In this document: piece after piece, positions 2,819 to 29,132 of the stretch | Layout of the letters: each line of letters starts with the position of its first letter | How positions within the stretch are numbered: position 1 is the stretch's first letter | DNA from: Anaerolineae bacterium | GTDB lineage: Bacteria > Chloroflexota > Anaerolineae > Aggregatilineales > UBA3940 | Direction: 5' to 3' | Assembly: GCA_016927375.1 (NCBI GenBank) | Contig: JAFGMS010000139.1 | Location: forward strand, 1-35,574 | DNA: 35,574 nt | Position numbers and translations under genes: made by a program | Notes under the pieces: generated by a model | The model's database searches: none | Seen by the model: the letters and a program-made list of their open reading frames with translations, nothing else | What the model was told of the DNA's origin: nothing

Positions 2819-3150
2819 TCAGGGGTGGTTGTTGGGATTATCGGTTGCCAACCCCTCGGAGGACGCCATGGCTGACAGCCGATTGTCGGCACAGACGAAG
2901 ACCAACCAGGGCAGATAATCCCCCGGCAATAAGCACAGTGTTGCTTTCGAGTGCTGATGCAAGCTGCACCGAGTCGTATGCGCGGAGAGAATGCTTCTCT
3001 AACAGGTCCTTGGCGCGTGCTGCGATCTGGTGGCTGAAACCAATCCCTATATAGTGGATATCGGCATAACGATCCAATACCTGGCGTATGGCATGGGCAT
3101 GGGCTGCAGAGAGATGTCCTTCACGAGCCCTGCGATTCAAACCACAGATT
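2819..3150 (-). pseudogene. PIN-domain (VapC-like) toxin remnant, 5'-truncated and frameshifted
   Basis: The minus strand encodes the C-terminal two-thirds of a PIN-domain ribonuclease. A helix reading LTEICGLNRRAREGHLS is followed by the family hallmark LRAYDSVQLASALE, which carries the late acidic residue. At about position 2915 the frame breaks. In the next frame the expected ending resumes (FVCADNRLSAMASSEGL) and stops at 2819-2821. The N-terminal part with the first catalytic Asp is missing: upstream of ~3150 the DNA is instead the structured repeat at 3156-3365. No VapB-like antitoxin is seen. An automatic ORF spanning 2838-3338 would fuse the repeat to the toxin remnant and is not a real protein. 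It is known that PIN domains need several acidic residues, so this copy is inferred to be inactive. Confidence 0.75.
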
Positions 3151-3155
3151 TCAGT

Positions 3156-3365
3156 TAGCACCCGGAAATAACATGGACAAGCCGGCCAAGCCCGGTTGGC
3201 GCTCACAACCTTGCCCCTGAGAAACGTGGCAGCTCGATACGCGATCTGCGGCCCCTCTCCGCCCGGCGGCACAGAGGGGGACGTCGCCGGCATAGCTATC
3301 GGCCACCGTTGCAGGGGGTGAGGTTCAGTGCCTCTCATCTATCAACCACGCTATTCTCACGTGCT
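3156..3365. ncRNA. structured dispersed repeat, copy A (candidate orphan ncRNA)
   Basis: The reverse complement of this 210-bp stretch aligns end to end with 27840-28046, with roughly four in five bases matching and most differences transitions. Shared pairings, read on the minus strand, are: a closing helix AGCAC/GTGCT; a long stem AACCTCACCCCCTG with CAGGGGCAAGGTT; GCCG/CGGC; CCCTCT..AGAGGG (TCCTCT..AGAGGA in the other copy, a compensatory C-G to T-A change); GCAG/CTGC; and GCCAA/TTGGC. Differences are spread over all three codon positions, which argues against a protein. Wobble patterns do not settle which strand is transcribed. On the plus strand the CACCCGGAAATAAC start and the CTCACAACCT..GAGGTTCAG pairing are reminiscent, from memory only, of HEARO/omega RNAs of IscB loci. 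No IscB gene is adjacent. This copy abuts and truncates the PIN remnant. Confidence 0.5.
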
Positions 3366-3617
3366 GCCCCACATTTATCTCAATTGTTAAGGTACACCAC
3401 CCAGATTACCATTACCTCGCTTGCTCCCGACATCAGCTACTGACCTTCAATCGTCATCACTAGCATCGAAAATGAGGTACATTGGGTGTGAGATGTCGTT
3501 TGTGATGAAGATCTCTCCGTGTTACGCGTGGGACCGTGCCGTTACTCTTGTTACCCGGCCTTTGTTTGTTGGAGAATGATAAAACCCTTCCCAACATGCT
3601 GGACCACAACAAATACC

Positions 3618-27763: not shown

Positions 27764-27839
27764 GTAAACCCATGAGACAGTCCGCTCAACAGGGATAAAG
27801 GGCTGTCGCAGTCTATTTGCTTGTGCTAAGATCGGCTGT

Positions 27840-28046
27840 AGCATGCGAGGATAGCGTGGTTGATAGGTGAGCGGCGCTGAACCTCGCCCCCTGCAGCGGT
27901 GGCTGATAGCTATGTCGGCGATGTCCTCCTCTCCGCCGGGCGGAGAGGAGACGCAGATCGTGTATCGAGCTGCTACGCTCCTCAGGGTGAGGTTGTGAGA
28001 GCCAAACCGGACTTGGCCGGCTTGTCCCCGTTATTTCCGGGTGCTA
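27840..28046. ncRNA. structured dispersed repeat, copy B (candidate orphan ncRNA or leader)
   Basis: This is the 207-bp partner of the repeat at 3156-3365, in opposite orientation in the window. It keeps the closing helix (TAGCA/TGCTA), the long AACCTC..CTG/CAGGG..GAGGTT stem, GCTG/CGGC, an uninterrupted TCCTCTCCG/CGGAGAGGA hairpin, GCAG/CTGC, GCCAA/TTGGC, and a CCCG/CGGG hairpin that is broken in copy A. This copy is therefore the better preserved. It ends 36 bp before the threonine aldolase ATG. A cis-regulatory leader on the plus strand is possible, but copy A has no comparable gene next to it. The 27695-28082 gap otherwise holds only the terminator. Confidence 0.5.
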
Positions 28047-28082
28047 GGTTACCAGCATGTATCCATTTTTGTGGAGAAACCG

Positions 28083-29132
28083 ATGGACTCCATAGATTTA
28101 CGCAGCGATACTGTCACCTGGCCGACGCCTGAGATGCGCGAAGCCATGTATCAAGCCGAGGTCGGTGATGATGTCTACGGGGAAGACCCGACCATCAACC
28201 GCTTAGAGGAGCTGGCTGCCAGGCGTTTGGGCAAGGAGGCAGCCCTGTTTGTCTCAAGCGGCACACAGGGCAACCTGATCGCCGTCCTGGCTCACTGCAA
28301 CCGCGGTGATGAGATGATCGTCGGTCAGAGTTCCCACACCTTCATCAACGAGGTCGCAGGAGCATCGGCATTAGGAGGCGTCTCATCCTATACCATCCCG
28401 ATACAGCAGGAAGGCACCCTTTCCCTCGCTGACATCCGCGCAGCCATCCGCGACCCGCGCGACATCCATTATCCTACGACCAGGCTGGTTTGCCTTGAGA
28501 ATACCAATGGCGCGGTCGGTGGCATCCCGCTCAGCATCCAATACACACGCTCGGTAGGAGAGCTATGCAGCGAGTGCGACCTGAAACTACACATCGATGG
28601 CGCGCGTATCTGGAACGCGGCAGCCGCATTTGGCTGTGATGTTAAGGATTTGGCCGCCCCGGCAGACAGCATCAGCTTCTGCTTATCGAAGGGATTGTGC
28701 GCACCTGCGGGGGCAATCCTGTGCGGGTCATGTGATTTCATCGAGCGCAGCCGCCGTCTTCGCAAGATGCTGGGAGGCGGCATGCGCCAGATCGGTATCC
28801 TGGCCGCGGCCGGGATTATCGCCATAGAGAAAATGACCAAGAGGCTGCAAACAGATCACAGCAATGCCAAACGTCTGGCCGAGGGTCTAAGCGACATCCC
28901 AGGTATTCACCTCAACATGCAGCAGGTACAAACCAACATGATCTTCTTCCGGCTCGACGAGTCAAGATCCATCGATGCAGCACAGATGACCGCAGTCCTG
29001 GCGCGAGAACACAACGTCAGGCTGGACGTCACCGGGCCACGCAGCTTCCGCGCTGTAACACATTACTGGATTACCGCAGAGCGCATAGAGACGGCTCTCG
29101 CAGCTATCCGGCAAGTCTGGGAACATGCCTGA
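28083..29132 (+). CDS. ltaE: low-specificity L-threonine aldolase
   Basis: A 349-residue fold-type I PLP enzyme cleaving L-threonine or L-allo-threonine to glycine and acetaldehyde. Family marks are the N-terminal IDLRSDTVTWPTPEMREAM and VGDDVYGEDPT, the LHIDGARIWNAA segment that contacts the cofactor, and the PLP-binding Lys in FCLSKGLCAPAG (~residue 205). The start is the ATG at 28083, with GGAG ten nt upstream; the longer open frame from 28041 runs into the structured repeat and is not used. Its stop overlaps the start of the next gene (TGATG), implying translational coupling to the CPBP-like membrane protein. The product glycine links it loosely to the one-carbon enzyme fhs 4 kb away. Confidence 0.95.
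   Translation: MDSIDLRSDTVTWPTPEMREAMYQAEVGDDVYGEDPTINRLEELAARRLGKEAALFVSSGTQGNLIAVLAHCNRGDEMIVGQSSHTFINEVAGASALGGVSSYTIPIQQEGTLSLADIRAAIRDPRDIHYPTTRLVCLENTNGAVGGIPLSIQYTRSVGELCSECDLKLHIDGARIWNAAAAFGCDVKDLAAPADSISFCLSKGLCAPAGAILCGSCDFIERSRRLRKMLGGGMRQIGILAAAGIIAIEKMTKRLQTDHSNAKRLAEGLSDIPGIHLNMQQVQTNMIFFRLDESRSIDAAQMTAVLAREHNVRLDVTGPRSFRAVTHYWITAERIETALAAIRQVWEHA

Follow-up and report, generated by a model that had tools for sequence, protein, structure and literature searches.

The repeat that occurs twice in the window, the whole stretch of 35,574 nucleotides from an Anaerolineae bacterium that was analysed here, is a MITE, in other words a short, gene-less transposon; it belongs to ordinary mobile DNA and is no new structured RNA. 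An IS1-like insertion sequence (IS) very probably supplies, in trans, the transposase that recognises its ends.

Copies, ends and target-site duplications

The two window copies (both of the 210-bp type), their ends and the reading frame that copy 1 has touched are located as follows.

3154..3368, minus strand: MITE copy 1, without recognisable remaining target-site duplication
3346..3368, minus strand: left terminal inverted repeat of copy 1 (GGCAGCACGTGAGAATAGCGTGG)
3154..3176, minus strand: right terminal inverted repeat of copy 1 (CATGTTATTTCCGGGTGCTAAC end)
2838..3338, minus strand: open frame beginning within copy 1 and continuing into a PIN domain (C-terminal part)
27837..28048, plus strand: MITE copy 2, absent from the orthologous site of the sister genome G001, without recognisable remaining target-site duplication
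27837..27859, plus strand: left terminal inverted repeat of copy 2 (TGTAGCATGCGAGGATAGCGTGG)
28026..28048, plus strand: right terminal inverted repeat of copy 2 (CCGTTATTTCCGGGTGCTAGG end)

Copies 1 and 2 are the same at 183 of 211 aligned positions (87%; BLAST E 1.8e-64, far beyond chance) and differ by 22 transitions and 6 transversions. An earlier note, made from the sequence alone, had described two copies of about 210 nt that align over their full length and differ mainly by transitions; both statements are borne out, with the copies slightly longer than claimed. It had also proposed a search for further copies in the genome, and this was positive: among stretches fetched from the window's genome, a profile of the element detects at least 56 loci at a similarity threshold of at least 90 bits. 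With copy 1 as the query against the same genome, at least 40 matches were listed from 95 first-look candidates, and 55 left ends of the element were counted. Compared pair by pair, 36 full copies are on average 86% identical.

The element is about 213 bp long, carries no gene and has a GC content of 62-63%. Its terminal inverted repeats of 23-25 bp are imperfect (left, GGTAGCACGCGAGAATAGCGTGG; right, inverted, GGTAGCACCCGGAAATAACGTGG), the left and right consensus being identical at 19 of 25 positions. Aligned copies have sharp common ends, beyond which the flanks vary from copy to copy. Direct repeats of 8 bp are found in these flanks, with a mean identity of 0.537 compared with 0.283 for shuffled partners (2000 shuffles, maximum 0.377), and at 4-7 and 9-11 bp the signal is at chance level only. 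At least seven of the eight duplicated bases are kept in 19 of 51 elements, against 0.7 expected. Perfect 8-bp duplications are GCCATATG (L014), GGCTATTT (L011), CATATTAA (L024), GATGAATA (L054) and GACGAAGT (L047), as well as CAGATTTC, present in both L023 and L026, and the pair CACTTGGA and GAATGACA in L053; at the two window copies none is recognisable. The same ends also bound elements of 83, 160, 179-200 and 294 bp, some of them with quite different interiors, and further short elements, of 131 bp in G001 and of 183 bp in the genome G006, have them together with exact 8-bp duplications.

The repeat therefore has the marks by which MITEs are known, namely a length below 500 bp, no transposase gene, many copies, terminal inverted repeats, a target-site duplication of fixed length and an empty site. 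The earlier wording of a 'mobile or dispersed' and 'non-coding' element holds. The terminal inverted repeats, taken with the 8-bp target-site duplications, speak for a DDE transposase and not for the HEARO/omega-RNA reading.

A second short dispersed repeat (...CAATCCGTGAAATCTGTGGTTTGAATC...) hosts 11 of the 51 elements, namely L001 (flank at window 3134-3153), L005, L006, L008, L010, L021, L023, L026, L055, L063 and L065. Several of these insertions share their position, and both orientations occur. At L008, L023, L026 and L063 both flanks of the second repeat are present and overlap by an 8-bp duplication of the GAAATCTG type; an uninterrupted second repeat, the recurrent target, lies at G000:C267:534-560.

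The frame at 2838..3338 is probably the remnant of a PIN-domain gene cut by the insertion of copy 1, its Pfam match to the PIN domain being sub-threshold (21.1 bits against a cut-off of 23.6). Upstream of copy 1, one frame reads MYLIFDAS and then meets a stop; the PIN-domain gene may have begun there. Copy 2 is intergenic and lies about 35 bp ahead of the likely ATG, at 28083, of a gene for a beta-eliminating lyase (threonine-aldolase-like).

The empty site and an IS1-like candidate parent

The flanks of copy 2 are conserved in the sister genome G001 at 77-78% identity with the element absent between them; in place of the CTTGTGCTAAGATTGACAGTACTG of G001, the window shows CTTGTGCTAAGATCGGC and then the element. 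In a comparison of 200 relatives, the 210-bp interior turned up in the window's genome only, and outside this genome the matches are confined to the ends (in G001) or to the apical CCCCTCTCCGCC/GGCGGAGAGGGG stretch. When a collection of genome contigs was scanned, the interior pattern gave no match and the end motif matched only the sister MAG. Because the interior is confined to this genome, the copies have diverged by about 14% and the duplications are gone in more than half of them, the data suggest that the element multiplied once the two sister species had separated and that its copies have decayed since. The apical hairpin (element positions about 86-117) is also present without the remaining element in other families of the order and of the class, with several occurrences in each genome, and is probably a separate, widespread short palindromic repeat.

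On G001:C19, a pair of ends 1216 bp apart encloses a single transposase frame of 369 aa, and this IS is intact. The right end of the MITE is the same as the ends of the G001 IS at 22-23 of 25 positions, and the left end at 19-20 of 25 only. The G001 protein has conserved N-terminal cysteines at positions 8, 13, 36 and 39 and conserved D120, D179 and E259, a pattern that would fit a zinc ribbon and a DDE core. Its match to the NCBIfam IS1 model is weak, at 34.6 bits, and as the curated cut-off of 100 is not reached, it is named IS1-like and not assigned to IS1; all 15 of the 15 aligned transposases match this model at E<=0.001. No transposase was matched when the transposase profile was compared with solved structures. 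Around the intact G001 IS no target duplication is visible. The window's genome holds a decayed IS end at G000:C138, with an in-frame stop and a degraded right end; an intact transposase with MITE-type ends was not found in this incomplete genome.

Of 396 genomes of the class, 43 carry related transposases, bounded by ends that read GGTAGCAC or similar. These relatives have a single frame of about 365 aa in elements of 1.2-1.3 kb, and exact 8-bp duplications are found at L098, L100, L104, L122 and L125. From the IS ends at G001:C19 and the duplications of the relatives, the MITE has its ends in common with an autonomous element whose kind produces duplications of the same length. End-like matches in G013 and G052 have no transposase gene nearby, and the one at G006:C7 has a dnaA-like neighbour. 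In G006, five contigs (C7, C96, C186, C285 and C427) carry the end-like motif GGTAGCACCACAGAATAGCGTGG at a distance of 94-120 bases from their start, as expected of a multi-copy insertion sequence that breaks the assembly.

Judged from these sequence comparisons, the IS1-like group would be the mover of the MITE. Its transposase would act in trans at the MITE ends GGTAGCAC...GTGCTACC and join them to staggered cuts in new DNA, and repair of the gaps would then give the 8-bp direct repeats; in this genome, the movement would by now have largely stopped. A wider proposal is that the IS1-like elements are an undescribed IS group of Anaerolineae, marked by a single frame of about 365 aa, by GGTAGCAC-type ends and by 8-bp duplications, and that several MITE families whose interiors are unrelated descend from this group; one of these families would hit the same position of the second short dispersed repeat again and again. 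We offer this proposal tentatively, the balance being somewhat against it.

It is improbable that the MITE was moved instead by a different, unsampled transposase family. Duplications of 8 bp can also be made by other insertion-sequence families, and the failure to find an intact IS1-like gene with these ends in the window's genome would fit such a mover. However, 23 of 25 end positions are common to the IS of the sister genome, a decayed copy is present here, and both the end motif and the duplication length are common to the whole transposase group. Still less weight falls on an origin as a GTAG-tagged palindrome of the REP type with a RAYT (IS200/IS605-like) enzyme as its mover; this is very improbable and was rejected on length, inverted ends and duplications. 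Like the GTAG REP elements, which are known from Chloroflexi (PMC3733652), the repeat is palindromic and dispersed and has GTAG in its ends, and the genome carries one Y1_Tnp (IS200/RAYT-type) gene, at G000:C198:1622-1960 (L138). Yet no MITE-type ends lie near this locus, so that no RAYT with such ends was found, and REPs are 20-40 bp long and tagged at one end (PMC3733652), whereas the element is far longer, at about 213 bp, and has inverted ends and 8-bp duplications.

Hairpin folding and the guide-RNA reading

Each window copy folds into a long hairpin, with z values of -1.5 for copy 1 and -3.9 for copy 2, and in many copies long stretches of the opposite strand likewise fit the element's own profile. 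The long hairpin of single copies is formed because the element is a quasi-palindrome. The earlier note had described six conserved stems, among them a closing helix and a hairpin with a compensatory change. The closing helix is real, being the pair of terminal inverted repeats, and the hairpin folding stands as well; maintenance of the pairing by compensatory change does not, since among 36 copies a two-sided change affects 8 pairs, and shuffling gives 7.6. Likewise, 88.3% of the cells pair in the real copies and 88.3% in the shuffled ones. The covariation check that the note had proposed detected nothing significant, with a score over the 36 copies of 0.086 compared with 0.087 after shuffling and an RNAalifold covariation term of only -0.28. 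The C-G to T-A change in the hairpin is of the kind that drift produces, and the idea of selection on RNA structure is not supported, as these copies show no covariation. In the proposed mechanism, a transcript or single strand of the quasi-palindromic 210-bp type would fold as one long hairpin; the folding would be a by-product of this build and would decay while the copies drift.

The note had guessed at a HEARO/omega-RNA-like element from an IscB locus; such a guide RNA, as the leftover of an IscB or a TnpB locus, is extremely improbable. The element does resemble HEARO RNA (RF02033) in being dispersed, in its length of about 210 nt and in the strong predicted folding of single copies. However, the comparison with Rfam, including RF02033, which the note had advised, gave no match to the element at gathering level, with HEARO absent from the relaxed matches too, and HEARO and all other Rfam families were rejected as no model matched. 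RF02033 was not found anywhere in the genome, a weak result in that the control genomes are also without any. No PF07282 (TnpB-type) protein and no associated nuclease gene was found, with working controls for PF07282, in a genome that is about 87% complete, so this absence is no proof. Also against a guide RNA are the lack of covariation and the inverted terminal repeats with 8-bp target duplications. A further alternative, in which the hairpin of the MITE has been recruited at some loci as a functional RNA or as a 5'-UTR or terminator element, is unlikely. The position of copy 2, about 35 bp ahead of the probable start of the lyase gene, would suit it, and such uses of MITEs have been reviewed (PMC10969869), but the pairing is not maintained by compensatory changes across the copies, and copy 2 ends without a terminator-like T-run.

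Relation to known elements

As a MITE, the element fits the anatomy of prokaryotic MITEs reviewed in PMC10969869. Bacterial MITEs with a resident parent IS include MITEAba12 of Acinetobacter (PMC6382973) and QMITE2 of Coxiella (PMC10969869), and the element is like them in being short and gene-less, with terminal inverted repeats (16-29 bp) and target duplications (7-9 bp), in a similarity to the presumed parent IS that is confined to the ends, and in a stable transcript hairpin. It differs from them in its end sequences and its host, in being GC-rich (62-63%) and not AT-rich, and in having an IS1-like parent that is intact in the sister genome only. ISAba3 of the IS1 family has 24-bp ends beginning with GGT, and 8-bp duplications are found at a transposon bounded by ISAba3 (PMC6382973). 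The presumed parent shares the GGT-starting ends of about 24 bp and the 8-bp duplications with this family, and IS1 is the best NCBIfam model for its transposase; unlike IS1, it is a single frame of about 365 aa in 1.2-1.3 kb and scores far below the curated IS1 cut-off. It is thus a distant relative of IS1. MITEs as a class are already known, and the novelty here is an IS1-related family of bacterial MITEs. In a non-exhaustive search of open-access papers, we found no report of MITEs in Anaerolineae.

With this assignment, a false lead, the orphan omega-RNA, is removed and a dispersed repeat of this genome is explained. For the Chloroflexota, a well-supported MITE family is gained, together with a candidate parent IS group.
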